Source: Nymphaea colorata (lineage: Eukaryota > Streptophyta > Magnoliopsida > Nymphaeales > Nymphaeaceae). From it: a stretch of 64,000 bases of DNA. Both the position numbers and the translations under genes were made by a program. Below the pieces are notes generated by a model. The model saw only the letters and a list, made by a program, of their open reading frames with translations. It searched no databases and was not told where the DNA came from. Shown piece by piece: positions 39,060 through 63,754 of the stretch; position 1 is the stretch's first letter, and each line of letters begins with the position of its first letter. Where the stretch lies: the NCBI RefSeq assembly GCF_008831285.2, contig NC_045140.1:1219528-1283527 (forward strand), read 5' to 3'.

Positions 39060-39416
39060 TTACAGGGGCATGAAGTAACCCAAGTTGAGGACGGGGGGAT
39101 GGCCAGGTGCAGACAGATCTTGGAACACTTCGCTCTTGAAAAGCTTGACAGCGTAGCCATCATGAACCTCAATCACCAACTTGTATGTGTAGTGCTCAGT
39201 GCCGCGATCAAGTACTTGTGCTTCTGTCACCTTAATGAACTCGAGGTAAGCCTTAGTCTGCTCATTATACCTTGTAACAGCGAACTTGCCCAAGTACTGG
39301 ACATGGCCGACATTAGGAACAGTAACCCAGCCAGATGGTTCGTAGGGGCGGGCAATGGCTACAAAGGCCAAGGCTGCCATCGCAGCGATCACGAGGAAAG
39401 AAGAGAAACGTGCCAT
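39060..39416 (-). CDS. Secreted cystatin-like protein A1
   Basis: Encodes 118 residues in one exon. The start is ATG 39416 (MARFSSF), which gives a clean signal peptide (about 1-22, ending AIA/RP); an in-frame ATG 45 bp upstream would add a basic extension before it. Cystatin features: SGW near the mature N-terminus, the helix signature LGKFAV-TRYN (42-51), and two beta strands around QVLDRG (67-72). Phytocystatins have QxVxG there and a Trp in the second loop; here the loop is changed and FQDLS takes the place of the Trp region. It lacks three residues (after PNV) present in A3 and A4. Diverges from B1 across a 1.4-kb shared upstream region. Likely apoplastic or vacuolar; whether it inhibits proteases is unknown. 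Confidence 0.85.
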   Translation of the reverse strand: MARFSSFLVIAAMAALAFVAIARPYEPSGWVTVPNVGHVQYLGKFAVTRYNEQTKAYLEFIKVTEAQVLDRGTEHYTYKLVIEVHDGYAVKLFKSEVFQDLSAPGHPPVLNLGYFMPL

Positions 39417-39539
39417 AGGTAGCTTACTAGTAGAGAGAGATCTTCTAAAACGAGGGGGCAATTAGCTCTGCTGCTGATCTTACAGTAGAGTAAATTAAGG
39501 GAGGAATGAATGATGAGTGGCACAGATAAGCCTCTCCCC

Positions 39540-39547
39540 TATATATA
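39540..39547 (-). promoter_or_regulatory. TATA box of cystatin A1
   Basis: TATATATA within CCCTATATATAG, about 125 bp upstream of the A1 ATG. The same motif and setting recur before A3 and A4. Confidence 0.65.
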
Positions 39548-40738
39548 GAAGAAAAAGTACGCTGTTGACGTAACGATGCGCGAGGCGATCGATGGGATCA
39601 GCAGAAGGAAAATTATATACGCAAGTTGCTTTGTGGAAATATACGCAGTTTTTGAATGGGGAAGTCCGCCGAATACGAACATCTGATTAATAATATTCAA
39701 AATTAGACCGTTTACACGCAGAATAATGGTGGCAGCCGCTGGGCTAGTCAGTACTCTCTCTTTCTAGAAGAACTATCGCGAACGCAGATTAATTCAAGTC
39801 ATTTGTTTGGATGAGCATAAACGCCAAGTCAAGCTGAATATTGCCATCGTAACTTCGACGAAACCTTGATGCCGTTGTCCATTTCCAAATGTCAAATGCA
39901 CATCCGATTCTACCAAACCTGTGCTTTAAATTCTGCATCAACTAATACACTACGCAGTTAACGTGATATTGATGCAGGAGATAACTACCGGAGGCTGCTT
40001 GTTTCCTCTGACTGATCCACATACCCCTTTTTTTGTGGATTGCAGTTTTAACTTCAATGGGACATTACCCATAATTATAATCGCTTTAGTTTGTGCTTTG
40101 TAGAGAAAATATTAATAATTTCATACTTAAATATGCTTGCCAAGCAAGAAAAATGCATTAAAAATGTCAACTTTAGTTACAGACGTTTGCGATCAGGCGC
40201 GCACGCAAGAGATGGAGTTGTTCAGTGTGAACTTGAGGTTATAAATCAAGCAACTTATTTAAGAACTCAAAAGCAAGGTTTGGTAGGAGTGGATAATGTA
40301 CTGCTGAGTCTCGGGAAAAAATTGTCCAACTATGATAAATTAGATTCCGTGTAGGAAAAACCGATAAATTGTTTGCCTGCTGCGCACGCGAGCAACACTG
40401 TGGTTAGAAACTGCAACAGGTACGAATATTCTGACCTCATATCACGAGAACGCGAGAGAGAACAGTCTTGGTACCACACAAAAGTATTCAAGTCTCCATT
40501 AAAGTGGAGTTGGTGAAGTCTAACCCTTTATGGTTTGGGATAAGAACGCTTCTGGATGTTGTATTTGGTTGACTTAGTTCACACAAGACTCTTTCCTCAA
40601 TCTGAATGGAAAAGAAAGTATCACCAAAGCGTTGGTATAACATTACATCAATAATTGAAAAAACGTTACTTACAGCCACGTACATTTTTGTTGGTATTAC
40701 GCTACATTATTCTATGGGCTGGCATTGCCAAGCCATCC
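39548..40738. promoter_or_regulatory. Shared divergent upstream region of A1 and B1
   Basis: Noncoding, but conserved in the other units (51745-53262, 58960-60519, 62077-63368). Shared blocks include GCAAGTTGCTTTGTGG (about 39622), ATTCAAA-T/G-TTAGACCG (about 39696), GTGAACTTGAGGTTATAAATC (about 40218) and the GTGGAGTTGGTGAAG block before B1 (about 40505). Conservation across duplicates may reflect recent copying as well as function. A TTGAC W-box core lies in the GGTTGACTTAG block. Confidence 0.5.
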
Positions 40739-40746
40739 TATAAATA
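40739..40746 (+). promoter_or_regulatory. TATA box of cystatin B1
   Basis: TATAAATA in CCATCCTATAAATA, 95 bp upstream of the B1 ATG; the same position and context occur before B2. Confidence 0.7.
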
Positions 40747-40840
40747 TGTGAAGTTGTGAACAATCGAATATTATCTCCTCTTCTCCATCTTTCTACTGCT
40801 CCTTCTGCCAAAGTACTATCTATTTCTTACTTGGCTAGCC

Positions 40841-41206
40841 ATGGCACCTTCCTTTCCTTTCCTTGCCATTACGATGATGGCTGCAATGGCTCTGGTAGCC
40901 ACTGCATACCCTTACAAACCCTCTGGCTTCGTTCCTGTGCCCCATGTGGAGAAGGACGGCCATGTTCAGTACTTGGGTGAATTCGCGGTAGAAAAGTACA
41001 ATGAACAGAAGCATGCATACCTGAAGTTCATTCAAGTGACGGAAGCTCAAGTACTGGATCGCGGCACCGAGCACTACACATACAAATTGGTGATTAAGGT
41101 TCAGGATGGCTATGCCATTAAATTTTACAAGAGCGAAATCCTGCAAGATCTTTCAGCACCTGGCGAGCCCCCCGTCCTCAACGTCGCCTACTTCAAGCCA
41201 CTGTGA
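40841..41206 (+). CDS. Secreted cystatin-like protein B1
   Basis: Encodes 121 residues in one exon with a signal peptide (MAPSFPFLAITMM...ATA). Then PYKPSGF (Phe where type A has Trp), helix signature LGEFAVEKYN (45-54), altered reactive loop QVLDRG (70-75), and LQDLSAPGEPP where cystatins carry the second inhibitory loop. Compared with B2 it has seven substitutions and a two-residue difference (PY at 24-25), so the copies are recent. Its N-terminus, MAPSFPF, departs from the MGRF start of B2 and the pseudogene. The 3' flank, through at least TGTGTGCCTCATGGCCTGG, is also shared with B2. Confidence 0.87.
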   Translation: MAPSFPFLAITMMAAMALVATAYPYKPSGFVPVPHVEKDGHVQYLGEFAVEKYNEQKHAYLKFIQVTEAQVLDRGTEHYTYKLVIKVQDGYAIKFYKSEILQDLSAPGEPPVLNVAYFKPL

Positions 41207-42101
41207 TTTCATGCACGGATATATGGTGCTCTTCCTCAATAAACAGTACCGTCGTCATCAAATACTAGAGGTTCAGTTGAATATCATATAACTGGAATAA
41301 ACCGTGTGCCTCATGGCCTGGCAACACCTACGTTTCGTTTGAATGTGTTGGACGAATAAGAAAAGCTATTCTGTAAGATGCCATGTGTCTACATATATAT
41401 TGAAATAATAGATCTCATAATTGTCTTGCCGAAAAACTCAAGAACTTGCCTTGAATTTCATGTTGTCTCAGCCATGCAGATCAAGCATTATTAACCGAAA
41501 AATTGAAGACAAAATATTGCAAGTTTTCATACCTGAAAATTTTTTGTTCTTGGACTTTCTGGGTACGTAAATTGCAAAATCTAAGAGTTGCGAACCATGA
41601 GAGTAACTAGCATGTTATTTCTTCAGTTCTTACAGATACTACATCGTAGTAATTAAATTTGTATCGGGCATGAAAATTGAGATTGCATGCAGTGTGAAAA
41701 AAGATGATTGATTGAATATATTAGAGTCAGTGAAGCTTGAATTGGAGAAGAAATATTTTAGTAATAAAACAATATAATTAGACTAACTTCATTAGTTAAC
41801 AGGGAGCGGCAAACTAGGAAAGCGCCATAAATGTTCGTGACCACCCTACCTCTAGGCCGTCTCATTTAATTCAATCTTCTGCTCAGGTGATTCCAAATAA
41901 CCCCTCTATAGTCTATACATAATTAACCATCTGGCGCATATATGAGGTTAGATGATTTCTCTAATTTAATCCTGATGAGGATATATATATACATATACAC
42001 TTATTTGGTTCAAAGTGCAGTGTTCGTGGGAAGTGTCAACGTACACGAAATTTCTTTTAAGGCACCGGCAAGATTGACTTCTCACACTCGGAGAGAGAGA
42101 G

Positions 42102-42136
<35 letters not shown>

Positions 42137-42619
42137 AGTTGTTTCTGTGCCTTATCTAAAATCCATAATTATCTTTTTTTGTGTGCACACAGTCAGAATT
42201 TGAACTGCACCTAATTTTAATTAGTTGCTGCTTGACACAATAAAAAATGTTGGATTTTACAACGTATACCTAGACCTGAGCCGAAGTACTCATCCGTACG
42301 CATGGCAGCATCCTTATGTTCCTCGAGCAAATTAAAGGGCTACCCACGGAACAATAGTTACCAGTCATTGATGAGATTCAATTATATCAAACCATCCTTT
42401 ATCGAAACATTTAATATAAAATTATCTCTGCTCCGAACCCATGCCACAGTTTCTAAACAACGAATTTATTTTAAAATGCTTTTCTAAAGTTCTTCAATGT
42501 TCATGCAGTCTCTGATTATAGATTTTACTAATCATTGTCGACATGCTGGCTATAAAACTGTCTCAAAAGGTGCATTGGCCTTTGGTAGTTTTAGCAACCA
42601 AAATAGAAAAGAATCCATC

Positions 42620-42683
<64 letters not shown>

Positions 42684-42950
42684 GTAAATGTGAGTGTATA
42701 TATAACTATGTACTTTTATTTCCTATGCAAGTGTGCTTTTGAAGATGTAAATTCTCATAGGGGGCCCAAAAAAGAAGTTTGAAGTCCAAAAGGCGCAAAC
42801 TTACTATATGGAAAGCTTAAAATTCAGAGATACATGAATAAAGTAATTTTAATGCACAATGGATCTCTTCCAATGGATAAAGACTCTTATTCTACCACAT
42901 CTCTATTCTATCCTTTCACACTGTTCATCTGCAGAAGATGTTTGGGAATT
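41207..42950. other. Convergent intergenic region between B1 and C1
   Basis: AT-rich, homologous in blocks to 53742-55896. Contains a (GA)n tract (about 42090-42134), a MITE-like fragment (42543-42610) and a (TA)n array (42624-42680). No gene supported. Confidence 0.5.
42543..42680 (-). repeat. MITE-like fragment with long TA array
   Basis: The reverse complement reads GGTTGCTAAAACTACC...GCCAATGCACCTTTTGAGACAG, matching the core seen at 5390 and in the inverted repeat at 54958-55592. It is followed by a (TA)n array of about 57 bp. It looks like a deleted, single-arm version of the unit 2 structure. Confidence 0.4.
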
Positions 42951-43373
42951 TCAGAGTGGTCCAAAGTAGCCTAAGTTGAGCACAGGGTGCTCATCATGTC
43001 CTGAGAAATCCTGGAACACTTCGCACTTGTAAAGCTTGAAACCAGGGCCATCATGAACCTTCATCAGCAAATGGTATGTGTAATGCTCGGTGCCACGATC
43101 AAGTACTTCTGCTTCCACCACTTGAATGAACTTGAGGTAAGCATGAGTCTGTTCATTGTACCTTTCCACTGCAAATTCACCGAGGTATTGAACATGCTCA
43201 TCCGTCTGTGCATGAGGGACAGGAACCCAGGGAGAATGCTCAACTTGATCATGAACATCATCATGATGTTCATGATCAGGATATTCATGATGTTCAAAAT
43301 CAGGATAAGCGGTCGCTACCAACGCCATTGCTGCCATGACTGTCATCGCAAGCATAGGAAGGAAGCGTCCCAT
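42951..43373 (-). CDS. Histidine-rich cystatin-like protein C1
   Basis: Encodes 140 residues in one exon. Signal peptide (MGRFLPMLAMTVM...ATA), then a segment of about 23 residues (25-47) dominated by His, Asp and Glu with seven histidines (HHEYPDHEHHDD...), absent from types A and B. The cystatin-like domain follows: WVPVPHA, LGEFAVERYN (64-73), EVLDRG (89-94; Glu replaces the loop Gln), and FQDFSGHDEHP. A single Cys (117) lies in the strand before this second loop. The His/acid run could bind divalent metals or respond to pH (inference). Five residues differ from C2. Converges on B1. Confidence 0.86.
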   Translation of the reverse strand: MGRFLPMLAMTVMAAMALVATAYPDFEHHEYPDHEHHDDVHDQVEHSPWVPVPHAQTDEHVQYLGEFAVERYNEQTHAYLKFIQVVEAEVLDRGTEHYTYHLLMKVHDGPGFKLYKCEVFQDFSGHDEHPVLNLGYFGPL

Positions 43374-43503
43374 GGCTGCTACTGTATCTAAATTCTAGGA
43401 AGGAGGAAAAAGATGGTGGGAAGGGAAAGAAAGGCCACAGCTTTCAGGAGTGCCAAATTGGTGAGAACGGAAGAGTGATGTCGATATCTCAAGTCACCAG
43501 CAG

Positions 43504-43511
43504 TATTTATA
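43504..43511 (-). promoter_or_regulatory. TATA box of cystatin C1
   Basis: TATAAATA on the minus strand, about 130 bp upstream of the C1 ATG; identical context before C2. Confidence 0.65.
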
Positions 43512-46500
43512 GGGCAGGGAGCTATTATATGCAACCAAATTGAGATCACTTAATACCGCTGCTCGCCAATGGCGTCAACCTGCAAGCGGCCTTAGTTTTG
43601 TTGCAGCAGCAAGTCATCTTTTTCTCAAGGAATCTCTGACTGATAATAATTCTCGAGTCAAAATCAGCTGTTTGTTCATCTAGCTACTGCAAATTAAGTC
43701 TTGGCTTAGGTGATCCCTGCATTAGCGTTTTAGATCAACCACTCTTTCCACTTCCACCAGACAAAATCGGCACCTACCCAGATAGCTACCACTTGCTTCA
43801 TCTAAAAATTATCTTGGAAATCTGGAAGAAATTAATTAAAGGAGAACCGAATTAACGTCATCCTTTTTCATCTCAACCACACCCTCAAACAAATGGGTAT
43901 GCACTGTTTATCGATTACACATATTGACAAGCAATTAATAAATAGAACTGCCTAATGAGATGAACACCATGAAAAGAATAACCGCCCGATTAATATAAAA
44001 TTTCAGCTCAGTGATAACAAATAAAAGGTCGCAAATGCAATAACTTAAGCTCTTCAGCATTGTGATTTGACAAAGTAATAATCATCAGGTGCATGGATTT
44101 TGGAAAAAGAAAAATATTGCATTTATTTCTCTCAGATTGACTGGGATTCATTAGGGAAAAAAAAGAAAAAGAAAAAAGAAAAGGATCACGTGAGTCGCTT
44201 GCTGCATTGTCGACCATGAGTGTACTAAAACTTGTTTTAGGCTAGGCATGCATCAATTGTATGTAGTTCAACATTATGATGTTTTTATAGTTCACTGCAT
44301 GCACGAAAAATCAATTGTACAATTGCTTAAAAAAGGAAAATAATTAAAGAAAAATAGAAAAAAATGAAAAGCTTGATTGAGAGGCAATCGAATGGCTTAA
44401 GAATACATATTCAATTTGCTCTGAAATGCATATTCATCAGTTCATGACGCACAAAAGACTGCAATTAATATCCCAACACTCGGATTTCTAAAGCCCGACT
44501 CTGGGTGCCACTATGAAAAACTCACAAAAATCTGAGTCGCAAGTCGTTATCATTTCATAAATGTTTTCTTCATTTTTATTAACGTTTGGGTTTCCTGTTG
44601 CTCGAGTACAAAGTGGTGGTGGAGGCGGTTCATGTTTATCCTCAAGTTAAAAGCTCATCTGACATGCCTTCACTTGGTATGTTTAATTCTGTACCAGAAT
44701 GCATGAACTTTTGGCACCCGTACCGTGTTTCATATAGATTTATGTCATTTGGATCAATTATGGAAGCTCCACAGGACCACAAGAGCCATACTATAGTTAA
44801 ATTTCCTTATCTAGTAATTCAAATTTAAGCTTTCAAAATAGCACACCTTTGAACTTTATTGCTCCTTGAGTCTCCTCTAGAAATAACTGATGTCTTTAAA
44901 TGCTGAAAGACACACACATATAGATGCATGCTTATCTTCATACACATACAGTTGAACCTCATCAATGCCTTTGTGCCCTATTCTGTATTCCTTTTAAATG
45001 ATGAACTTAAAAACGCTAGGAGCTGAGCTAGGACAAACCGAGCCAATTACATACTTGGTGATTAGGGAGGTTAATTTGGTAAGTCGCACATACGTCCCTT
45101 GTCTTTGCTTTACTCCCTTACGAGATATGAATAACGTTCCATTAATAAATAGAGATTACAAGTCAACTACAAGGCAAAGTATGTTTAGGGCTTTACATAT
45201 TTGTGTAAGATGTGGAAGATTCAGTATCTTCTTATGGGCAATCCAGTTGAACCATTCTCCGATCGAGATGGCTGAAACGCATAGTAAACAAATCAGATTA
45301 GCATCAGAATCATGTAGAAATATGTAGAATTCTGTTTTTTTTTTTTTGCCATTCATTGTCATTCAGTTGTAACGTCAACATAGCTACTGCAGTGAATAAT
45401 TAGAAAGGACAACTTCGGACAACTTCTGCTGCCTAGCTATTTTGTTCTCCGTTTTGTTAGGATATCTGTTTAGACATGGCATCGGAGCCATGCCGATGAG
45501 AGGCCCCCAACTTCCTTCTGAGCACATTTGCGCCCTCTGCTTCATCACCATTTAGTGGATCAGAGTCGTCATCTGAAAAGTGCTGTGGAACTCTCCCACT
45601 TTTGTTAGAAATGAAAAATGTTGTGTGGTTTGGATGTAACGTGGCAAGGAGTATTGACTGGTTTGAGATGGTATACAGTACCAAAATTTTAGTTCATTTC
45701 ACGAAAAAATGTGATTGCTTCAGTTTTTATCAAGTTCAGTGTTTGTGCATGAAGACGCCAGTACTGCTATTACCATCACCATATCACAAAGAAAGGCGAG
45801 AGTCGTCGCATTACTTTGACTATAGCTGGTGGAGAAGGATGTTGGCCAAACCTTGATGGAGAAGGAGCAAGCAGGTATTTTCAATTACAAGGAAAGGAGG
45901 TGGTGCTCTGTAGTGTTTCTTGATGTTCGATCTCTATAGCAAGGGTGGTCACATGCAGCCCAACCTGTGAAGGTAGCGCTTCGTATCTCTTGACGGCGCC
46001 ACGATAGGATAGACAACGTGACAAGAAGTGAGGGGGGAAGCCAGGATTTTGTTTTTGGGGAAGCCGAAGAATTCTGCAATATACTAAATAACATTTCTGA
46101 AAACTTTTCCGAGGGGCCAGGCCTTGTTTTCAAAAAGTTTTGTTAAAGGTGCCCAATTATGAGAAAAAGGTTTGCTACAGTTTGTTATGAGTGCTAACAA
46201 CAAAGCTTTCAAATTGATAAAGAAGAAGATTTCAGGTCTGCGTTGGATAAAGAAGAAGATTAGGCCTGTTGATATCTTTTGTATATGCAGCACAGCATTT
46301 GTTCCTGGTTTGCCACCCGCTGGCGTCTTCCTTCTCAACCCACGAGGACACGTCTTCCTCTTCAACCTACAAATCGCTAGCTGAGGGCATCCGACGGCAA
46401 AAGCGACGAACGTCGACTCCATCGAGACCGCCTTGACGCCGTCCGGTGGAGGAGCCGGTATCGGCGAGTTCGCCGATCGGAGGGACGCTGTCCAGGCCTC

Positions 46501-46583: not shown

Positions 46584-46827
46584 TGTTAGGAGGTCAGTCT
46601 AAAAAGTTCAGAATCAGTTACGAAACAGTTGTAATACAGCTGTATATCATTGATAATGGGTTTTATACATGTATATAGAGATATCTCTGCTACATACTAT
46701 ATATGTATATATATATTTGATAAATGAGAATACGAGTATTGCTCTCTCGCATAACATTACCTCTTTCTCTGTCACCTTACGTTTCCTTGTTCTTCCCTCT
46801 CAACTACTACCTTCCCCAACTCCAAGA
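46584..46827 (+). repeat. Copia-2 left LTR
   Basis: 244 bp, from TGTTAGGAGGTCAG to CAACTCCAAGA. Both the target duplication and the adjacent primer-binding site fix the ends, giving TG...GA and not the usual TG...CA. It differs from the right LTR (231 bp) by substitutions and small indels, so the insertion is not very recent. Confidence 0.88.
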
Positions 46828-46842
46828 TGGTATCAGAGCAAC
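46828..46842 (+). other. Copia-2 primer-binding site (tRNA-iMet)
   Basis: TGGTATCAGAGCAAC immediately follows the left LTR; complementary to the 3' end of initiator tRNA-Met. Confidence 0.9.
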
Positions 46843-47083
46843 AGGCAGGCTGAAATCTCATCCTCTCAAGGGCAGACGTAAACACCTACAGCCGATCAAG
46901 CGACAGGTCCTCAACGTTGAGGTTTCCGTAGGTGTCGACGGCCTCCCAAAGTTTAGGGAAGCTTAGGGCTTTTGTTCCTGCACAAAAGGAGGGAAGAACT
47001 CACGGGCTAGGTCTCGGCTTTCTGGTCTTGGCTTCTCAACCGGAACGTGAGCATGGATTCTGCAGCTTGAGGGATTCTCAGCA

Positions 47084-48060
47084 GTGATGGCAGAATCAGA
47101 AAAGCAAAACCCCCAAGTCTCTACAGTAATGAAGGAGTCAGATTCGGCTCTCAAAATCACCACAACACCTCTCAACGGTGGAAACTATGTGGTGTGGGCG
47201 AAATCAGCAAGCTTATACCTATGTGGAAAGTCAAAAATCGGCTACATCAATGGAAAGACTACAGCTCCTGAGAAAGACGGTCTGAGTTAAACTCAATGGA
47301 GCCCACCATTGCAGAGAGCTTTCTATTCCTTGATTCGGCCAAAGAAATCTGGGACACCCTAGCACAGATCTATGGTGAAGGCCAAAACCTGGACAGGGTC
47401 TATCTCCTCCAACAGGATATCGCACTATTTACCAAAGGAGAGAAGCAATTTCATGTATATCTAAGCTCCCTTACAGCGATGTGGGATGAACTATCCCAAT
47501 ATCGTCCCCTCATTCCTGATATGGAAGTGCTGAAACAGAGAGCTGAAGAAGATAAAGTGTTCAAGCTTCTCGCTGGGCTAGGAGCAGAGTTCGACTATCT
47601 AAAAAGTCAGATTCTCATGTCTTCTCCTCTCCCGTCCTTCAACAATGTCTGTTCCATCATACAACGAGAAGAAACCAGGTGAAAAGTCATGAAGACTAAA
47701 GACGAATTCAAGAAAGAACATGCACCTGCTGACAAGGTTACATTTGTCGCTAAGACAGAAACACCCCAGGCTGCACTAAGAGACAAGAGCAACTTCACAG
47801 TTGATAGCAGGTTCGTTCGAGGACGAAGTTCTCTGTTCTATACTTATTGCAAAAAACAAGGCCACACTAGGGAACATTGCTGGAACCTGAATGGCCGTCC
47901 AAACAGAGGGAGAGGACAAAAATTCTTAATTCTAGTTTCAGACGTGAAGATGACATTGCTGAACTCACACGTCTGCTAAAACAAATTACCTACAGCAATC
48001 TTGCTATTACAACTAAATTGGGAACAGAAAAAGTAAGACTTCAAACCCTTTACCTTGCTC
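47084..48060 (+). pseudogene. Copia-2 gag, disrupted
   Basis: Starts at ATG 47084 with the plant Copia gag N-terminus (LNGGNYVVWAKSASLYL). The frame is broken by a TAA (47288-47290) and a frameshift before 47296, a TGA (47680-47682), and a frameshift near 47925. The zinc knuckle (about 47845-47880) reads YTYCKKQGHTREHC: the first Cys of CCHC is replaced by Tyr. Confidence 0.88.
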
Positions 48061-51000
48061 TTTCTTGGCTCGTTCCAATAACTCAGCATGGATAGTTGAC
48101 AGTGAAGCTACAGATCATATGACTGCTTGTTAAGAACTGTTATATAATGTCAAGTATGATAAACATGTATCAGTAAAACTAGCTGATGGGTCGATCACAT
48201 CTGTAGTAGGATATGGCTATGTTTACATAAATAAGCATATTACCTTGCATGACGTGTTGTATGTGCCTAAGTGTGCAACAAACTTGATATCTGTTAGCAA
48301 ACTGAGTAATGCTCTGAGCTGCTATATAATTTTCGTTGAAAAAAAGGTGATACTAGTAGACAGCAAGAATCAGACGAAGATTGGTGAATGCAAAGAAGCA
48401 AATGGCTTATACTACTTGACTCAAGAGCACAACCCCATCATATACACTGCAATAAAGACTGCCAACGATGCTCGTATATGGCACTGCAGAGTAGGTCATC
48501 CCTCCAATAAGGTCCTGTTGACTATGTTTCCAGGCTCTAGATTCTTAGTAGATGATTGTGAGCCATGTACCCTAGCTAAGATGACCAGGTTGCCATTTAC
48601 AAACTCTGAATATGTCGCTGAATCATGCTTTGATTTGATACATACTGATGTCTGAGGACCAGCCCTTATAACCGAACAATCTGAATATAAATACTTTGTC
48701 ACTTTCATAGATGACAAATCTCGAGCTACCTGGACCTATTTCTTAAAAAAGAAAAGCGATGTACTTCTTACGTTTAGGCAATTTTTTCAGTACATAGCCA
48801 CTCAGTACAATCACACGATTAAGACACTAAGGTCAGACAATGGAGGAGAATATATTAATGCAGAATTTGAGGAGTTCACAAACAAACAAGGAATATTACA
48901 TCAAACCACCTGTAGGGGTACTCCCCAACAGACTGGGGTAAGTGAACGACGAAATAGACAGCTGCTAAACATTGCTAGATCTCTAATGTTTTACATGAAT
49001 GTTCCCCACAGTTTTGGTGTGAAGCAGTGGCTTGTGCTTGCCATGTCATGAATAGAACCTCAAGCCACACATTAGGCAACAAGAGCCCATTAGAAATTTT
49101 GAATGGTAGACCTCCTTCATTACAACACTTAAAGAGTCTTCAGATGTGTGTGTCATGTTCATGTACAAGAAAGTGCAAGACACAAGCTTGAAAGACGAGC
49201 TATTAAATGTGTGTTTCTAGGGTATTCCTTTAACAAGAAAGGATATAAGTGCTATGACCCTATAAGAAACAAAACGTATGTATCCAGAGATGTCAAGTTC
49301 ATGGAATATACACCCTTCTATACTGAAACTGTACCAGATGCTTTCAGCAAAGGGAAGAATGACCTAAACAATGATCCCATGCCTGTTATACCTCACGATC
49401 TCATGCCAGTTATACCTCTTCCAATGGCAAATGAAAATGATGATGCATTTGTAACATCTAATACCAGTTTGGCTGATGAAGAAGCAAGCAACAACTCCCA
49501 CGTGGATGTGGGTGTGACTAAAAGTGTTCAAAACAGAAGGGTTGATCGCATAAGAAGAAGACCGGCTAGATATAATGATTACTATACATATCATATTCAG
49601 AAAAATGAAAAAGTTAATATAGTTCCCTGCCATGAAAGAGAACCACATACTTATGAACAAGCTAGCACTGAAGATAAATGGAGGAAAGCAATGCATGAGG
49701 AATTAGCAGCCCTGAAAAAAAATCAGACTTGGAAACTAGTAGATAGACCTCCAAACAAAAAGTTGATTGACTGCAAATGGACATATAAAATCAAGTATGA
49801 CAGTAGTGGGTAGGTGGAGCACTACAAGGCAAGACTAGTAGCGAAGGACTTTACACAAGAACAAGACATTGACTATCATGAGACATTCGCCCCAGTTGCA
49901 AAGATGAGCTCATTACGAATACTACTTTCAGTAGCTGCAGTAAAGAACTGGAAAATGTATCAACTTGATGTGAAGAATGCTTTTCTTCATGGAGACTTAG
50001 AAGAAGAGATCTATATGGAATTACCCCAAGGACTATATGTTCAACATGGTACTCAACCACAAGTGTGCAAATTAAAGAAGTCATTATATGAACTTAAGCA
50101 GTCGCCCAGAGCGTGGTATGAAAAATTGAGTTCAAAACTGATTGAAGGAGGATATAAGATGAGTAGTGCTGATCATTCTATATTTGTAACATCTACCAAC
50201 AAGGGAACAGTTATTGCTGCTCTCTACGTTGATGATATAATTTTAACTGGAAAAAGTCTGAGTTTTATTGAAATAACCAAGAAAGTTTTGAGGAAATGCT
50301 TTGAGATCAAAGATCTAGGAGTATTACACTATTTTCTTGGCATGGAAATAATACACAAACCAAAAGGCATATTCTTGTGTCAAAAAAGTTATGTTGCAGA
50401 CATACTACATGAAACAGGAATGACAGATTGCATAGAAGTTGATACTCCAATGAAAGCAAACTTGAAGTTGATGCATGATGACGGAGAGCTCATACATGAA
50501 GCATGAAGTTTTCAGAAGTTAGTTGGTAAATTGTTATACTTGATAGCTACTAGACCAGATATCACCTACGCAGTAAATTTGTTAAGTCAGTTTATGCACA
50601 GCCCCAGAAAACCTCATGTAGAAGCTGCCCATCATGTGCTGAGATATCTTAAGAAGACAAGTAACAAGGGCATCATGTTTAGAAGAAACAACCATCTACA
50701 AATATATGGATATGTAGACACTGACTGGGCAGGAAATCAAAATGGCAGGAAATCAAAATGACAGAAGATTAACCACTGGTTACTGCTGTTTCGTTGGTGA
50801 TAATTTAGTCTCTTGGAGGAGTAAAAAACAAACAGTTGTTGCCAGATCAAGCATAGAAAGTGAATATCGAGCAATGGCTCTCACTGTGTGTGAACTGTTA
50901 TGGATAAAATACTTGCTACAAGATATGAATATGAAGATAGATGTAGAACAACCAATAAACCTCTTTTGTGATAGCAAGACTGCAATTAACATTGAAAATA

Positions 51001-51182: not shown

Positions 51183-51199
51183 AATTTGAAAGATCTAAC

Positions 51200-51212
51200 T
51201 TGAGGGGGAGAA
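51200..51212 (+). other. Copia-2 polypurine tract
   Basis: TTGAGGGGGAGAA directly abuts the right LTR; the classic Copia plus-strand primer. Confidence 0.85.
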
Positions 51213-51443: not shown

Positions 51444-51448
51444 GTTGC
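51444..51448 (+). repeat. Copia-2 target-site duplication, right
   Basis: GTTGC, identical to 46579-46583. Confidence 0.85.
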
Positions 51449-53741: not shown

Positions 53742-55065
53742 TTTCATGCACGGATATATGGTGCTCTTCCTCAATAAACAGTACCGTCGTCATCAAATAC
53801 TGCAGGTTCAGTTGAATAAGATATAGCTGGAATAAACCGTGTGCCTCATGGCCTGGCAACACCTACGTTTCGTTTGAATGTGTTGGACGAATAAGAAAAG
53901 CTATTCTGTAAGATGCCTTGCGTCTACATATATATTGAAATAATAGATCTCATAATTGTCTTGCCTAAAAGCTCAAGAACTCGCCTTGAATTTCTTGTTA
54001 TTTTACTCATGCAGATCAAGCATTATTAACCGAAAAATTGAAAAAATATTTTAAGTTCTCATACGTGAAAATTCTTTGTTCTTGGATTTCTGAGTATGTA
54101 AATTGCAAAAATCTAGGAAAGCCCCACAAATGGCCATCACCACCCAATATCTAGATCTAATTCAATCGTATGCCTGCTAAGGTGCATTCCTTGTAACCGG
54201 TCTATGCATAATCAACCATCTGGCGCCTATATAAGGCCGGATGGTTTTTCCATTCCAACCCTGACGAAGAAAACCTTAAATTATATATATATATATAATT
54301 ACTAGCTATTACTACATTTATGTGGCTCAAAGTGCAGTGTTTGGTGGAGATTGGATATACCATCTAAAAGTGTCAACATAACGAAATTTCTTTTAAGGCA
54401 TCTACAAGTTTGAGTTTTCACAAGAGAAAGAAAGAGAGAGAGAGCCAACCGATAAAATGAGAATATATAACAAAGAGGTCCCCTAGGTACAAAAAACAAT
54501 CCACAAAGAGAGAGAGAAATAGCACTAGTTGCTGCATACATAGTTCTTGGTTACTGCTTGACACTATAAAGATGTTGGGTTTTTACTACCTATACGGAGA
54601 CGGCGAGACCTGAGCCGAAATACTTCTCCAGCCATGGCCGTATTCTTACGTTCATCGAGTAAATTAAAGGACTACCCGGCAATACCATTCATCGATGAGA
54701 TTCAATTATGTATAACCATCCTTTATCGAAACAGTTAATACAAAATTATTTTCTAAACTTTTAAATGGAATATAAGATTTTGCTCGGATCCAATGCCACA
54801 GTTTTTAAAACACTTAATTTATTTTAAAATGTTTTGCTAAAGTTCTTCTCTGATCATGCAGTCTCCGATTATAGATTTTGCTCATCATTGTTGACATGCT
54901 TGCTGCTTTGTGATAACAAATTCAATGAGCTAATTTATATTCCAAGCTTAATTATATTGGGCGCCCTATATGATTTTACATCTTCAATCACACCCTTACA
55001 GAGGAAATGTAAGAAATATAACTACATGCAAGAAATATAAGTATATAGTTATATACACACACATG

Positions 55066-55128
<63 letters not shown>

Positions 55129-55485
55129 CCAACTACCACGTTTAAATGCCTTGAAAAACAATTGTTAAACAAAAACTGTGGCCAATGCACCTTTTGTGAC
55201 GTTTTTGCCATATAAAATAAATAAAAATTCATCTGGCAACTAGTGGTAGCCAGTAGATTTCAATTTCACACACACTCTCTCTTTTTGTGTGTGTGTATAT
55301 ATATATATATTTATATACCACTAGTTGCTAGATGAATTTTTATTTATTTTCTATGGCAAAAACTGTCACATCGTTTAACAGCAGTTTTTCAAGGCATTTA
55401 AACGTGGTTGTTGGAAGTTTTAGCAACGGAAAATAAAAAAAAGCCATCCGAAAATAAAAGTAACCGGCACACACACACGCACATA

Positions 55486-55534
<49 letters not shown>

Positions 55535-55896
55535 CTTACATTTCCACTGTAAGGGTGTGCTTGAAGATGTAAAATCATATAGGGGGCCCAAAAAAGAATA
55601 TTGAAGTTCAAAGGGTGCGTTTGAAGATGTAAATTCTTACAGGGACACTAAGAAAGGAAGATTGAAGTTCAAAAGGTGCCAACTGAATATCTGGAAAGTT
55701 TAAAATTTAAAGATGCATGAGGAAAGTAATTTTAATGCACAATGGATCTCTTCCAATGAACAAAGAGACTCATCAGATACAACACTTCTCTCCATATATA
55801 GGCAAAGGTTAGAACAACTCTTTTATTCTACCACACCCCGCCCTATCCTTTCACACTGCTCATCTGCAGAAGATGGTTAATATCTGTTTGGGAATT
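53742..55896. other. Convergent intergenic region between B2 and C2
   Basis: Homologous in blocks to 41207-42950, with a large inverted repeat (54958-55592) containing three TA arrays, a short GA tract (about 54425-54445), and a roughly 60-bp tandem duplication (about 55556-55680, units containing TTGAAGATGTAAA and TTGAAGTTCAAA). No gene supported. Confidence 0.5.
54958..55592. repeat. Large inverted repeat (foldback) with TA arrays
   Basis: The left arm (54958-55255) and right arm (about 55318-55592) are reverse complements over most of their length: the outer ends GGGCGCCCTATATGATTTTAC and AAAATCATATAGGGGGCCC pair, and so do inner blocks such as CACGTTTAAATGCCTTGAAAA and ATAAAAATTCATCT. 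Each arm holds a (TA)n array (55072-55122; 55488-55531) and the spacer a third short one. Transcribed, it would fold into a long hairpin. It may be a foldback transposon or two opposed copies of the element at 42543. Confidence 0.75.
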
Positions 55897-56319
55897 TCAG
55901 AGTGGTCCAAAGTAGCCTAAGTTGAGCACAGGGGGCTCATCATGTCCTGAGAGATCCTGGAACACTTCGCACTTGTAAAGCTTGAAACCAGGGCCATCAT
56001 GAACCTTCATCAGCAAATGGTATGTGTAATGCTCGGTGCCACGATCAAGTACTTCTGCGTCCACCACTTGAATGAACTTGAGGTAAGCATGAGTCTGTTC
56101 ATTGTACCTTTCCACTGCAAATTCACCGAGGTATTGAACATGCTCATCCGTCTGTGCATGAGGGACAGGAACCCAGGGAGAATGCTCAACTTGATCATGA
56201 ACATCATCATGATGTTCATGATCAGGATATTCATGATGTTCAAAATCAGGATAAGCGGTCGCTACCAACGCCAATTCTGCCATGACTGTCATCGCAAGCA
56301 TAGGAAGGAAGCGTCCCAT
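55897..56319 (-). CDS. Histidine-rich cystatin-like protein C2
   Basis: Encodes 140 residues in one exon. It differs from C1 at only five positions (two adjacent in the signal peptide, Asp for Glu before the loop, and Leu and Pro changes in the second-loop region). The His/Asp/Glu-rich segment (25-47), EVLDRG loop and single Cys are unchanged. Converges on B2 across the inverted repeat. Confidence 0.86.
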   Translation of the reverse strand: MGRFLPMLAMTVMAELALVATAYPDFEHHEYPDHEHHDDVHDQVEHSPWVPVPHAQTDEHVQYLGEFAVERYNEQTHAYLKFIQVVDAEVLDRGTEHYTYHLLMKVHDGPGFKLYKCEVFQDLSGHDEPPVLNLGYFGPL

Positions 56320-56449
56320 CGCTGCTACTGTATCTAAATTCTAGGAAGGAGGAAAAAGATGGTGGGAAGGGAAAGAAAGGCCACAGCTTTCAGGAGTGCC
56401 AAATTGGTGAGAGCGGAAGAGTGATGTCGATATCTCAAGTCACCAGCAG

Positions 56450-56457
56450 TATTTATA
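56450..56457 (-). promoter_or_regulatory. TATA box of cystatin C2
   Basis: TATAAATA on the minus strand, about 130 bp upstream of the ATG, in the same context as C1. Confidence 0.65.
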
Positions 56458-58592
56458 GGGCAGGGAGCTATTATATGCGACCAAATTGAGATCGCTTAAT
56501 GGCGTTGCTCGCCGATGGCGTCAACGTGCAAGTGGCCATAGTTTTGTTGTAATTTTCTCAGGGAATCTCTGACTGATAATAGCTCTCAAGTCAAACCTGA
56601 TGTTTGTTCATCTAGCTACTGCAAATTAATTCTTAGTTTAGGTGATCCCTGCATTAGCGTTTTAGATCAACCACTCTTTCCACTACCACCAGACAAAATT
56701 GGCACCTACCCAACTAGCTACTTCTTGCTTTATCTAAATCTTATCTAGGAAATCTGGAAGAAATCTTTTTCATCTCAATCACACCTCAAACAAATGGGAA
56801 CTGTTTTATTGAGTATACATTCTAACAAGTTATTAATAAAGCAAGTTTATCTATTGGATTTGCATTGGCCTACACCTGATCCAGCACCTGATCTCCATTG
56901 TTCCCCTCGTGGGCATAGCGCCCCTAAAAAAGTTTATCTATTGGATTTGCATTGGTCAATTCTCATCGATTTTGTGCAAATACTACTGAAGGTGTGGCTG
57001 GGAGCAACGGATATTAAATTCGTGAACCTAATGCTACTATTTTGTTCCGAGTTCAGTGGTAAAGAATCTAATGTGACTTAGCAATTATGTAAGCAGGAAG
57101 TGGTTAACTTTGTCGCAAGAATTTCTCCCACCTTGTCAACTAGTTTCCTTGGTCTCCCTTGTTCGCATTATCTGCGTGTGTTTATACCACGCTGGCTTCT
57201 CCTAGATTGATCAAGTTAAGAACAAAGAAACAAAATGAAAAAGTAAAGAAAAAAAAAACATACTTCCTCCTTGGCCACGAAAGTCGACTCCCTTGGCGAG
57301 GGTCGGTTGCTATTCTCCAGGGAGATGTGTACTTGTCTGTCGGATGGCCGGAATCAGCTGGGAAAACCGCCGGCTGGAAGATCCTGGGTAGAAACGGTGG
57401 GCGGGGAACCGAATGTTGACATGGATGATGAAGAACCCTTTGAGATTGTTGTTTTTGCTTGGAAAACGAGAGTTTTGATACCTGAATCTGTGATCTCGGA
57501 GATGAAGAAACCCTTTCGGTATACGGCAATCTGCAGTTATCGTGGGCAATTCTCAACAGAGGTGTTTTGATCTTGCTTTGTTATGCAAGGCCTGCGAAGC
57601 CAGCTGGAGCTAGAATCTATGTGGATATGGAGAAATTAGCCCCTTTTTAGATCTGCAACCACTTGTGCAGGTATGGACCTGTGGTGGTTCAAACAGAACA
57701 GAGTAATCCTTCGATCATTCTGACTTGTGAGAAATTGAAAGAGTTGCGAAGTTGAACATGGACTTTGTGGGATGTGCATCAACGAACACATTTTGGATCA
57801 TCAAAGTAGGGTTTCAACGGAGACTTGTGTTGCACATTTAAGCGCAGTTTGGCAGAAAACGTAACCTAGGAGCTCACTCGCAAACCTACACAAAGTCTTT
57901 CGCATTTGATCACAGTTTCTCGACAACTCAAAAAAAATGCCTGAGTAGTTTGTATAAGTTTATGAAAGGAAACATAAAATTTTATGGAAAAGCACCAATT
58001 TAAAATTGAAACAACGCACGATGACGGAAGGAGCCCTAAATTTTAAGTGCATTTCTTGCTTCTGTAGACTTGCCAAAGAAGAAAGCCCGAAGAAGGCGAA
58101 GGGAAATAGATAAGGATTGCCAAATTGACTCTGTCAACAAAATAAGACACCGTCTTTCACTAAGCTGCAAAGTGAAAGGGTGGCTTTAAGAAAAAGAAAG
58201 TAAATCTGAAGCACCTATCTCTCACCATCATAAATCACACCAACAATCTAGAGAGAGAAAGAGAGAGGAAGGGAGGTGGGGAGAGAGAGAAAAGCCAAAA
58301 GCAAACACCCGCTTTTCCAGTTCCTCCGGAAGAGAGAGTACCCACGCAAATACAGATAGAGAGAGAAGCGAAAGAAACAATTCCCGCATCCCCATTACCC
58401 TGTTTCTATATTTTTCCTCTTTCTATAAACCATTGCCCAGCTAAAAAGAGAATAAAGCAAGAAGACGATTTTATTTCTTACAGCATTCAACTGGGTGCAA
58501 CACCATTCCATGACAGGACTGCTTATTTGGGTAGTACAATGGCTGAAAAATAATATTACAACATGCTGATCATCATATTAATATATGTGTGA
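56458..58592. other. Region between C2 and A3
   Basis: Matches the C1 upstream region to about 56838. It then holds a 26-bp direct repeat (56843-56868 and 56930-56955, AAGTTTATCTATTGG...), a moderately GC-rich stretch with short unrecognised open frames (57160-57570), and a GA-rich tract (about 58250-58370). No gene supported. Confidence 0.45.
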
Positions 58593-59091: not shown

Positions 59092-60518
59092 GGAGAAGGA
59101 AAGACAATGTGCACGTAACGCTGTTTGGCTAAGGGACCGCCATTGGAGAAAACTTGTGTATGCAAGTTGCTTTGAAGGAAAAGCATGGGGCCTTTGAATG
59201 GAAAGGTCCACCGAGTGCAACTTCATATACATATCTGCACAAGCACTTTATTCTTCTCATAATATTCAAATATAGACTTGTTCAAAAGTGATGCCGGGTA
59301 GGATGAGCATCATGGCCAAGTCAAAACTGATCTTTATGGGGTTGTCCATCTAAATGTCAATTAATGCACATCGACTTCTACCAAACCTGTGCTTTAAATT
59401 CCACATCAATTAACAAGGATTCACCGTGCATTTGGCTTAATTTTGCTAATTAAGACTCATTGTCATCCACGCATCTTTCAGTGAACTATATACCCTTTTA
59501 TTGATCAAGAAAGAACACTGAAGAGAGGATTGAATATTTGAATTGATCCACTGCCGTAAGTATGTGGCCATAGTTCAGGACGGATGCTCACAAAATAAAA
59601 CTCATCTTTATAAAGGTGACAAATTCTAGATTAAGTAGATGAATATTGAAAATAAATGAGAAATTTTGTTAAAAAGTCATCATTTTCATGCTTAGATGTG
59701 CCTTTTAAGCAATAAAAGATGTAAAAATGTCTAAGAGATACCAACTTTATATGTGTTTGCACCATAGCCACAAAAAATGTCTTTCCAAAAAAACACATTA
59801 AAAATGCAAAAACTGAATAAAGCGGCAAAAAAATGCTATTTAAAAAAAATCTAAAATGAACAAAAATAAAGTTTTAAACTAGCTTTTTTAGGTTTTCTTT
59901 ATTCCATTTTAGGCCTTTTTTTCAAGTTTTTTTAATGTCAAACTGCTTTTTCCATTTTCAAACTTTTGGCTAATTTTTTAATGTTGTTTTATTAGTTTCT
60001 CTTTTATTTATTTATTTTTAAATGTTTACCAAAGTTTTCTCATTTTTTCAAGTTCATCGTATTGTGCCTTAAAATGAAGCTTACCTATGTGTGAAGATGA
60101 CGAGTTAATTGAATATAATAATTCAAGCAATTAAATGTGACTTCAAAAAGAGTCCGGAATGGGTAATCTACTTGGAGAGAAACTTATCTCGAAATCGTCA
60201 CAGTATGAAAAGTTGATGAATACTAACGACTGATCAGCAGCTCTTATTCTAATGAGTTCATATCACGAGAACAAGCGAGCGAGAGAGAGAGAGAGAGAGA
60301 GGGAGGGAGACAGTCTTAGTTCCCTGCAACTGTGCTCAAGTCTCCATTCATCAAGTGGGAGTTGGTGAAATGGTTGAATTTTTCCTGGTTTCAGAGAAGA
60401 ACATGTGTGGATGTTGTGTAGTAGACTTGGTCCACACATGACCCATTCTTTGATCTGAATGAAAACCAAACTATCACCATAATGTCGCTATATATTACAT
60501 TAAATTAATAATTGAATT
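59092..60518. other. Unit 3 divergent upstream region, B promoter relic
   Basis: Left half matches the A promoters (GCAAGTTGCTTTGAAGG, ATATTCAAATATAGAC). The right half matches the B promoters (GTGACTTCAAAA, GTCTCCATT, GGGAGTTGGTGAA, TATCACCATAATG). 59830-60060 is an unrelated T/A-rich stretch, and a (GA)n tract lies at about 60276-60302. Homology to B stops at about 60518, before the TATA box and coding region, so the B gene of this unit is gone. Confidence 0.55.
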
Positions 60519-61576
60519 AGATATCTTTTTGAACGGTTCTGAAATCGGATGTACATAAATATCCGGTCTGATTCGGAATTTGGATTCAGGTCAGAGTTAA
60601 TTTTAAATAAATATCTTCTTATCTCTAACATCCTTACAGTTTGAAAATTGACCAGATTCAGATTTAGATTCAGTTGTTGTAAAAATTGTGAAATCAAAAT
60701 TCAGATTCGGATTCAGATGGAGTTTTCTTCATTCCTATTTAAATCAGAATTTGAATTTGAACATGTGAATATAAAAAAAAACAGATATTGCTAAGAATAT
60801 ACTGTTAAGTCCGATCCATTGAAATCCATATAACCTCGAGTCGTCACTCATAGATCCATATAGACATCAATTCTTGATGAAATTAAGTCCAATGTGTGAA
60901 CTATATCCAATCATGGACTCCGGGTGATCACATTGAGTTCAAACATGTTTAAAAATCCAATGAATCCTAATTGGGCAACTTAATTTGACATTCTTGGTTG
61001 AACCAAGTGGGTTCATGACCTTGTCGAAGGTCTATGATTCTCACATCGAATACCACATGCTTAATCTACACCTTGGCACCATACGATATGAAGGGAAAGC
61101 AGATTATACGGAAGCATTATTAACAAAAGGGCCTAAAGCATTGGGATTTTCCAAAAGTATGCCAAAAAGTAAGGCAACCCCAAAGTCCACCAAACCCAAA
61201 GAATAATGACAGGGGGTACGTTCTTTGGCAGATTGCTTCGTAGGACGAAGGGTGGGGATGGGAGAAGAGATCATATTTCAAATATTATAAAAAATGCCAC
61301 GCAAAAGTTTTGCTAATATAGTTCATTAACGTGCTAAAAACGGAGATACCAAATTGATAAAGTAGAAGATTTCAGGTTTGCATTGGAGAACGAAGAAGAT
61401 TAGGCCTGTCGATATCTTTTACAAATGTAGTACGTAAACAGAAGATGATAAACAGAGATTTTATTCCTTGTCGCATACAACTGACGTGCCTCATCATTTC
61501 ATGACACAGTTCTTATTTTCGTAATAGAAAGATTGGAAGAATATAGCATCCATGTGGAATGTCATAATCTTGAATG
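60519..61576. other. Repeat-like stretch and A4 3' flank
   Basis: 60519-60780 is rich in degenerate GATTCAGATT/GGATTCGG motifs typical of an old dispersed repeat. 60985-61206 is an open frame of 73 codons that I do not recognise. From about 61345 the sequence is A-type 3' flank (AAGATTAGGCCTGTCGATATC). Confidence 0.4.
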
Positions 61577-61945
61577 CTAATACGAGGGGATGAAGTAACC
61601 CAAGTTGAGGACGGGGGGCTGGCCAGGTGCTGACAGATCTTGGAACACTTCGCTCTTGAAAAACTTGACAGCGTAGCCATCATGAACCTTGATCACCAAC
61701 TTGTACGTGTAGTGTTCGGTGCCGCGATCAAGTACTTGTGCTTCTGTCACCTGAATGAACTCGAGGTAAGCCTTAGTCTGCTCATCATACCTTGTAACAG
61801 CGAACTTGCCCAAGTACTGGACGTGGCTGTCCTTCTCCACATTAGGAACAGTAACCCAGCCAGAAGGTTCGTAGGGGCGGGCAATGGCTACAAAGGCCAT
61901 GGCTGCCATCGCAGCGATCGCGAGGAAAGAAGTGAAACGTGCCAT
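61577..61945 (-). CDS. Secreted cystatin-like protein A4
   Basis: Encodes 122 residues in one exon from ATG 61945 (MARFTSF); an in-frame ATG at 61990 would precede the signal peptide with a basic extension and is not preferred. Contains SGW, LGKFAVTRYD (Asp for the usual Asn), QVLDRG and FQDLSAPGQPP. The C-terminus is GYFIPSY, one residue longer than A3. Diverges from pseudogene B4. Confidence 0.86.
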   Translation of the reverse strand: MARFTSFLAIAAMAAMAFVAIARPYEPSGWVTVPNVEKDSHVQYLGKFAVTRYDEQTKAYLEFIQVTEAQVLDRGTEHYTYKLVIKVHDGYAVKFFKSEVFQDLSAPGQPPVLNLGYFIPSY

Positions 61946-62068
61946 AGGTAGCTTACTTGTAGAGAGAGCTCTTCTAAAACGAGGGGGCAATTAGCTCTGC
62001 TGCTGATCCTACAGGAAAATAAATTAAGGGAGGAATGAATGATAAGTGGCACTGATAAGCGTCTCCCC

Positions 62069-62076
62069 TATATATA
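62069..62076 (-). promoter_or_regulatory. TATA box of cystatin A4
   Basis: TATATATA in CCCCTATATATAG, about 124 bp upstream of the ATG. Confidence 0.65.
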
Positions 62077-63368
62077 GAAAAATTATGTCCGCAAGTTGCT
62101 TTATGGGAAATATACGCGGTTTTTGAATGACGAAGTCCACCGAATACGAAAACCTAATTCTTTTAATAACATTCAAAGTTAGACCGGTTCCATGCGGAGT
62201 GGTGCAGGGTGGGCAATGCCTTAATAGTTAAGACTCCACCCTCTCTCTCTCTTGGAACAAGTATGACGAATACAAGGCAATTCAAGGCATTTGTTTGGAT
62301 GAGCATCGTGGCCAAGTCAAACATATAATTTCTCTGGTAACTTCCAGGAAATTTTGATGTACTAGTAGTCGATTTCCAGATGCCAAATGAACGTCTACGC
62401 CTACCAAACCTGTGCTTTCATCAATAGATTGATTCTCTGTGCTGCTGAGGTAATATTTTATCCGGAAACAACGTGCGGCCGAGGCTCCTTAACGTCCATC
62501 GTTTCAATCAGCTTCCCATTTCATCAGAAAATCGAAAACAAGGATCCACTGCCGTTGTTTGATCATGCTTGACGTTGTCCATTAACAATCTCAATGTAAA
62601 GCGACAAATGCTATAGTAAGTAATCGATGAAAATTAAACCACAAAAACAGGAGTATCTAGAATTGCTTATTAGAAAACTGATGGACTTTGAATACCCTGT
62701 TCCTCTGTCACCATTGTTTGTGTGGTTTGCAGTTTCTAACTTGTATAAAACCGTATCATATATACTGATATTTGCTTTAGTTTGTAAAGAAAAACATGTT
62801 TAGTTTCATAATTTTCATGCTTAAGCGTGCTTGTCAAAAAAAAAAAAAAGAATCTGTTAAAATGTCTAGGAGACACCAACTGAAGATATATTTGAGTTCA
62901 TGGGCGCACAGGGGAGGGGAAAAATTCATTCATAATGGAATTATCGTCTTACATGCCTTCTAAAAGGCTTGTTCAGTGTTAATTTGAGGCTATAAATCAA
63001 GCAATTTATGTGACTTCAAAAGCAATGTTTGGTGGGAGTGGATAATGTACTGCGGGGTCTTGGAAAGACATTGTCCAAGTATGATAAATTATAAAGCAAT
63101 TAATTAAGCAACTGTATCAAGTCTCCTTTCAAGTGGAGTTGGTGAAGTGGTTTAATTTTGTATGGTTGAGTGGATCGTGTGTGGAAGCTGTATTTAGTTG
63201 ACTTAGTCCACACAAGACTGTTTATTTGATTTGAATAGAAACGAAATAATCAACAAGTGGTTGGTATTAAGTTACATTAATAATTAATAATTGGAATACG
63301 ATAACTTATAGCCACATTTTTGTTGGTAGTACGTTACATCACTTTTGGTCTGGAATCGATAAGCCACC
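62077..63368. promoter_or_regulatory. Unit 4 divergent upstream region
   Basis: Matches the A1/B1 and unit 2 regions block by block (GCAAGTTGCTTTATGGG, ATTCAAAGTTAGACCGG, TAATTTGAGGCTATAAATC, GTGGAGTTGGTGAAG, TTGACTTAGTCCACAC). No gene of its own. Confidence 0.5.
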
Positions 63369-63375
63369 TATAAAT
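63369..63375 (+). promoter_or_regulatory. TATA box before cystatin pseudogene B4
   Basis: TATAAAT about 113 bp upstream of the B4 ATG; the promoter outlasts the gene. Confidence 0.55.
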
Positions 63376-63487
63376 GTAAGCGTTGTAAGGCATGGAAGTC
63401 ACTCATAGATCCAATAGTACTATTTCCCTTCCATCTTCCTGCTACCACTCCTGATCTAGAAAACTACGTTCTAGTTACTAGCTGGCC

Positions 63488-63754
63488 ATGGGACGTTTCT
63501 TTCCTTTCCTTGCGATCACAATGATGGCTGCAATGGCTCTGGCAGCCGCCGCTTATCCTTATAAACCCTCTGGCTTCGTTCCAGTACCCCGTGTGGAGAA
63601 GGACGGCCATGTTCAGTACATGGGCGAATTTGCTGTGAAAAGGTAAAATGAACGGAATCATGCATACCTCAAGTTCATTCAAGTCACGGAAGCTCAAGTA
63701 CTGGATCGCGGCACCGAGCACTATACATACAAACTGGTGATTGAGGCACACTAA
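63488..63754 (+). pseudogene. Cystatin-like B4 pseudogene
   Basis: Opens like B2 (MGRFFPFLAITMM, PYKPSGF, EKDGHVQY), but a TAA at 63644-63646 falls where B1 and B2 have a Tyr codon in the helix signature (FAVEKYN). Downstream sequence still matches B, including QVLDRG, until about 63745, where homology ends and a stop follows; the last strands and second loop are missing. So two defects: a premature stop and a 3' truncation. Confidence 0.85.

Follow-up and report, generated by a model that had tools for sequence, protein, structure and literature searches.

Tandem gene families are usually described either as evolving together or as drifting apart, and where gene conversion drives the concerted evolution of such a family, the copies are homogenised and show bounded tracts. 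The family described here is an array of cystatin-like genes in a 64,000-nucleotide stretch of Nymphaea colorata DNA, which is called the window below (C3:1219528-1283527 in the 407.8 Mb assembly of 783 contigs); coordinates are window positions, except that seven-digit numbers are positions on C3.

The closest described systems are introduced here, with papers cited for the passages drawn on. Inhibitory cystatins are defined by an N-terminal glycine, the QxVxG motif, a second-loop tryptophan and a helix motif (PMC5085774, PMC7827979), and among the cystatins of sorghum 12 of 18 are intronless (PMC7827979). The squash aspartic protease inhibitor (SQAPI) represents a family that is derived from the phytocystatins and has a changed target class, while monellin, a plant protein akin to the cystatins, serves another role (PMC2784779). 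The mammalian type-2 (salivary) cystatins form a tandem cluster with close paralogues (PMC4201479); the concerted and the birth-and-death models are treated generally in that paper, coding-centred tracts not being shown in the passages used. No paper on the present array was found in the literature searched, where the loop sequences themselves were not among the search terms.

What is most interesting in the array is that the evolution of the coding regions is uncoupled from that of the promoters and that the loops of the proteins are replaced. As an explanation of the whole we propose block duplication, coding-centred gene conversion and replaced loops, to which we give a probability of about 0.73.

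Genes of the array and their coding tracts

Eight single-exon cystatin-like genes, seven of them intact and one broken, lie at 39060-63751. As a first-pass annotation of the window had stated, they fall into three subfamilies, each supported at 100/100 in the tree, and the fixed orientations A(-), B(+) and C(-) hold inside the window:

39060-39416, minus strand: A1, intact, 118 amino acids (aa), single exon, signal-peptide-like start by eye (C3:1258587-1258943)
40841-41206, plus strand: B1, intact, 121 aa
42951-43373, minus strand: C1, intact, 140 aa, with a His/Asp/Glu-rich arm after a signal-peptide-like start
53382-53741, plus strand: B2, intact, 119 aa
55897-56319, minus strand: C2, intact, 140 aa, with 0 synonymous and 5 nonsynonymous differences from C1
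58593-58958, minus strand: A3, intact, 121 aa, of promoter class 1 (with A5 and the A genes 1035, 1067 and 1069)
61577-61945, minus strand: A4, intact, 122 aa, of promoter class 2
63488-63751, plus strand: B4, broken by an in-frame internal stop, 3' part missing

Each of the intact genes encodes 118-140 aa with a hydrophobic start that by eye resembles a signal peptide, and the seven intact proteins all match the Pfam profile Cystatin PF00031 (25-31.7 bits against a cut-off of 22.2). An intact counterpart of B4 is present on the opposite strand at C3:1031615-1031980. Long antisense open reading frames overlap all seven intact copies and were rejected as candidates; they are taken as a by-product because synonymous reshuffling gives equally long ones in 24-65% of trials.

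The window holds only part of the locus. When the whole genome was searched with the C2 protein, 104 matches were obtained, among the weakest of which are a few ordinary cystatins; 33 of the 104 lie at C3:1.01-1.32 Mb, in two oppositely oriented groups of one 0.3 Mb locus that includes the window, and most of the others are clustered on C3, C6 and C8. Of these 33 matches 29 could be read as genes and four were left out; 14 A genes and nine C genes are among those read.

Within the subfamilies the coding regions are much more alike than their surroundings, and for C and B the low-divergence tracts, which include synonymous and non-coding sites, are bounded by diverged homologous flanks:

42939-43532, no strand: homogenised C tract of unit 1, edges taken from the list of differences, partner at about 55885-56478
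40874-41518, no strand: homogenised B tract of unit 1, partner at 53415-54050

None of the 87 synonymous sites differs between C1 and C2 (synonymous divergence, dS, of 0), the coding sequences (CDS) differ at 5 of 423 positions and the leaders at 2 of 158, as compared with 45 of 363 further upstream and 33 of 184 downstream, where divergence is 12-18%. The Fisher p values are 7.6e-5 and 1.4e-6 for the synonymous sites and 7.6e-6 for the leader. The upstream edge of the C tract is sharp, identity falling from 99% to 88% between adjacent 100-bp windows; with a looser segment scan, the best C segment is 42908-43897 with 40 differences in 945. For B1 and B2, the tract, which includes 3' flank, has 25 mismatches in 636 sites (3.9%) versus 140 in 719 (19.5%) outside it, and none of 2000 permutations gave a segment as good. 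Note that the five nonsynonymous and zero synonymous differences between C1 and C2 have a neutral probability of 0.31 and are not evidence of positive selection.

The same uncoupling is seen in the A genes. A1, A3 and A4 differ by 2.8-5.6% in the coding region, by 8.6-16.8% in the first 140 bp of 5' flank and by 27-44% beyond. The 14 A genes have 5' flanks of two classes separated at 100/100, A3, A5, 1035, 1067 and 1069 making up one and the other nine the second. The median flank difference is 0.46 across the classes versus 0.27 and 0.26 within them, while the median dS is 0.155 across the classes (45 pairs) and 0.148 (10 pairs) and 0.155 (36 pairs) within them, the distance comparison including as near-duplicate rows a left-group pair of units that are 99.7% identical. 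A1 differs from A_1028 and A_1044 by 0.12 in the flank and 0.256 in dS, and from A3 by 0.41 in the flank and 0.051 in dS. Moreover, informative sites that join A1 with A3 and those that join A1 with A4 stand at 13:3 in the CDS and at 9:30 in the first 260 bp of 5' flank (p 1.4e-4), and the A flanks reject a clade of A1, A3 and A5 (approximately unbiased, AU, test, p 0.0003).

Across subfamilies the picture is different. A, B and C remain apart from each other, with a between-subfamily dS of 0.63-1.24 (medians 0.87-0.93) and a ratio of nonsynonymous to synonymous divergence (dN/dS) of about 0.2. Exchange between subfamilies was rejected, four of five run tests having p of at least 0.12 (0.12, 0.49, 0.53 and 0.69) and one, for A3-C2, a low p of 0.012.

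Based on our proposal, after the blocks had been duplicated, coding-centred tracts would have been copied within a subfamily, most likely by gene conversion, so that the proteins remain similar and the promoters and spacers separate into diverging classes. The high copy number would then give dose, and the several promoters may give different expression. Some results weigh against this: the segment scans against B4 are less clear, the coding and flank trees of B agree, and the coding tree of A does not reject the promoter class 1 clade (AU p 0.362). The tracts are best read as gene conversion between members of a single subfamily, a reading that falls short of proof.

Loops and fold of the proteins

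The motif QxVxG is present in none of the seven intact window proteins and in none of the 29 readable genes of the locus, and a tryptophan after the first loop is likewise present in none of the 29. All 29 genes contain [VMK][LF][DE]RG..HYT[YF], 26 of them exactly as LDRGTEHYTY. The longest invariant stretch of the mature proteins in the window is VLDRGTEHYTY (11 aa, permutation p 0.024), and in a weak model of the mature domain the turn of the first hairpin is predicted to lie within it. The second loop is DLSAPGxPPVLN-like in A, in B and in genes sampled from C6, with a variant in C. At the level of sequence the loop replacement is clear: both of the hairpin loops that would face the protease are replaced, the first by a sequence common to all readable copies.

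The other defining features are kept in part. The helix motif [LVI]-[AGT]-[RKE]-[FY]-[AS]-[VI]-x-[EDQV]-[HYFQ]-N (PMC7827979) is matched strictly by none of the seven window proteins; its first six positions fit in all seven, position 8 is R or K, and A4 also ends in D, giving one mismatched residue in six proteins and two in A4. At the place of the N-terminal glycine, the five A and B proteins of the window have SG and the two C proteins, C1 and C2, have SP. Subfamily C adds a His/acid-rich arm to the domain, with 5-7 histidines in the 26 residues inspected in all nine C genes read.

That the proteins belong to the cystatin fold is suggested by the Pfam profile, by matches to sequences in PDB and by a list of structural matches that was obtained with weak models. 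The profile matches in PDB are multicystatin, affimers and oryzacystatin; four of the seven window proteins score above 31 bits with PF16845, the SQAPI model (range 30.5-34.8); and in the structural list, from the weak models, cystatins stand at the top, with SQAPI and monellin among the rows. With the full-length model, Foldseek returned no match with E < 0.001.

It is noted that the ordinary cystatins of this genome have kept the usual loop: seven of eight sampled PF00031 loci elsewhere have QVVAG or QVVSG, the eighth being broken before the motif. By contrast, the loop-1 sequence of the locus, or a close variant of it, recurs in six genes that were sampled from C6 and C8; in four of these six there are two cystatin-like domains per open frame, each with a loop of the LDRG or MDRG type. 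The two outliers sampled on C3 (at 7.80 and 12.41 Mb) have diverged further, with the loop KLERAPGHYSY and His/Asp-rich arms.

Units of duplication, losses and the wider locus

When the stretch from 38.5 to 64 kb was compared with itself by BLAST, 45 off-diagonal matches of at least 60 bp were obtained (16,952 aligned bases), with none in each of 20 dinucleotide shuffles and none in the left 38.5 kb of the window. Collinearity of units 1 and 2 extends, with interruptions, over 40218-43942 and takes in the B-C spacer; multi-gene stretches were therefore copied together with their spacers, as the first-pass annotation had held, and homology between units is not limited to the coding regions. It is between the subfamilies A, B and C that resemblance is essentially limited to the coding region. 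The spacers from C to the next A have no mutual match when compared within the window, so the phase from A to C is right for units 1 and 2. What had been seen as a divergent promoter shared by A and B is a spacer of about 1.4 kb in which each gene has, by eye, a TATA-like box ahead of it.

Unit 1 is a full A-B-C, as reported, and is the only complete one among the mapped copies. Unit 2 is without A; the statement that units 2, 3 and 4 are each short of a different member does not stand, since units 3 and 4 are alike in having an affected B. All that is left in unit 3 is A3 with a scrap of B promoter, and unit 4 has A4 and the broken B4. The traces of these events are as follows:

46165-46302, no strand: remnant of the lost A2, 3' flank; 46165-46293 matches 61303-61433 and 46252-46302 matches 38881-38931
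51757-52192, minus strand: remnant of the A2 promoter and 5' leader
46584-51443, plus strand: Copia-type long terminal repeat (LTR) element between the A2 flanks, with the 5-bp target duplicated on both sides
60295-60516, plus strand: B-promoter scrap, B3 coding region not found; the surrounding stretch aligns to C3:1065346-1066008

A remnant of the A2 coding region was sought with small words and was not found. The Copia element is seen at one place only in the window, and its LTRs (46584-46827 and 51213-51443) differ at 13 of 218 sites (6%); because they differ less than the unit flanks do, the element would be younger than the unit duplication if the rates are alike. Its internal frames have many stops, and a Copia-type reverse transcriptase frame is found at 49814 (10 frames scanned). 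Separately, the B2-C2 spacer contains a 635-bp imperfect palindrome (54957-55591; arms 54957-55027 and 55521-55591, 92%) around AT repeats, which unit 1 matches only in part.

The array continues to the right of the window, as had been supposed, with A genes at 1285866 and 1295160, a broken C at 1298565 and more matches up to 1318533; a fourth gene type, 59% identical to C2 over residues 46-140, lies on the right side at C3:1308783-1309145. The left group (1.014-1.070 Mb) lies about 190 kb to the left of the window's group in the opposite orientation, and it contains three divergent B(-)A(+) pairs (B 1031615/A 1033634, B 1047341/A 1049361 and B 1062197/A 1064059), the convergent partner of B being an A gene in all three and the C genes sitting apart. 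The window genes A3-A4-B4 correspond to A 1035275, A 1033634 and B 1031615 in three collinear inverted pieces (95.3, 93.4 and 92.5%), the left block having an intact B. Between the first two pieces the window has about 1.5 kb with no equivalent in that left unit; this extra stretch, in which the B-promoter scrap lies, finds its match at 1065346-1066008 in another left unit (79.5%). The scrap beside A3 shows that this place had lost a B by the time the stretch was copied. The A-A-B arrangement is thus present in both groups, and in view of the match of A3-A4-B4, units 3 and 4 need not be separately decayed A-B-C units. Two left-group units, C3:1028195-1034940 and 1043915-1050667, are 99.7% identical over 6.7 kb, which could be a very recent duplication or an assembly artefact.

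The recurrent unit of the locus is the divergent A-B pair. Gene blocks with this pair as their core were copied with their spacers by tandem and inverted duplication. The reading of A-B-C as the copied module is not supported across the whole locus; the earlier observation itself is confirmed and is larger than was reported, its module interpretation being right in part, and the homogenisation of the coding regions apart from their flanks and the loss of the inhibitory loops lay beyond its view.

As to its other contents, the window has plant-like neighbours of the array, with a B56-type PP2A regulatory fragment at 3107 (10 frames scanned) and, at 32467-36861, two carboxylesterase-like Abhydrolase_3 frames that span successive parts of the profile and are probably two exons of one carboxylesterase gene. 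Rfam gave no match at the gathering score in the window.

Alternatives and comparison with known systems

If the A-B-C triad were the duplicating unit and the remainder its decay, one could readily understand that unit 1 is a full triad, that unit 2 lacks only the A of one, that the two are collinear with their spacers included, that an A (1295160) and the broken C (1298565) follow to the right in A-C order, and that the scrap beside A3 marks a lost B. This model is nevertheless unlikely, given that the convergent neighbour of B in the opposite group is A in three of three cases and that A3-A4-B4 has its counterpart in an A-A-B block there, with three pieces aligning at 92.5-95.3%. It is very improbable that the repeats are false ones arising from uncollapsed haplotypes in the assembly: the 99.7% identical left-group pair could have this origin, but the window units differ by 12-44% in their distal 5' flanks, carry different insertions and have the Copia element at one place only. 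As for the homogenised tracts, they would need no conversion if the coding regions and leaders were strongly constrained, or lay in a low-mutation compartment, and the spacers mutated fast. The dN/dS of about 0.2 between subfamilies does imply that purifying selection is real, and the flanks do contain AT repeats and insertions. However, synonymous sites have been free to change between subfamilies (dS 0.63-1.24), in distances and site patterns of the A genes the copies closest in the CDS are not those closest in the flank, a reversal not produced by rates that depend on position, and the C tract has its sharp upstream edge; we hold this explanation to be quite unlikely.

There remains the function of the proteins, which might, despite their altered loops, have kept the usual mode of inhibition of papain-like cysteine proteases. 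Their sequence is recognisably that of cystatins by Pfam, QxVxG is altered in 5 of 18 sorghum cystatins (PMC7827979), and the N-terminal glycine is kept in the A and B proteins of the window, so that this view retains some weight. It is on balance doubtful, as QxVxG and the tryptophan are each at 0/29, the glycine is absent in C1 and C2, and the new loop 1 is conserved from one subfamily to the next. According to our proposal, the proteins are most likely secreted inhibitors or binders directed at a target other than the usual papain-like site. More specifically, and only tentatively, at somewhat less than an even chance, we suggest an expanded secreted family of cystatin fold, including two-domain forms, in which the inhibitory wedge was swapped for new conserved loops directed at a non-papain target and in which conversion holds the protein nearly constant under several diverging promoters.

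The array is like the phytocystatins (PF00031) in its family profile, in the LGKFAV/LGEFAV start of the helix, in domain size and in its single exons, and is unlike them in that its proteins are without QxVxG and without the second-loop tryptophan, depart from the helix motif and have a new conserved loop 1. Likeness to SQAPI is found in that four of the seven window proteins pass the cut-off of PF16845 and 2kxg is among the structural rows, while 2kxg is not among the sequence matches in PDB up to E 1; note also that the name of PF16845 is applied to ordinary sorghum cystatins as well (PMC7827979). Monellin, similarly, is among the structural rows but not among the PDB sequence matches up to E 1. 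The mammalian type-2 cluster shares with the array the tandem arrangement of cystatins with close paralogues, and differs in consisting of vertebrate genes with disulfides. If the loop replacement means a new target, the array would be a further plant case of a re-used cystatin scaffold beside SQAPI and monellin.

With regard to concerted evolution driven by conversion, the array differs in that the tracts are coding-centred, the subfamilies stay separate within 2 kb and the promoters escape. One locus thus seems to do both of the things that tandem families are described as doing, with the coding cassettes evolving together and the promoters apart, while three subfamilies less than 2 kb from one another stay separate; and with 33 matches in 0.3 Mb it offers a good natural test of the limits of conversion tracts.

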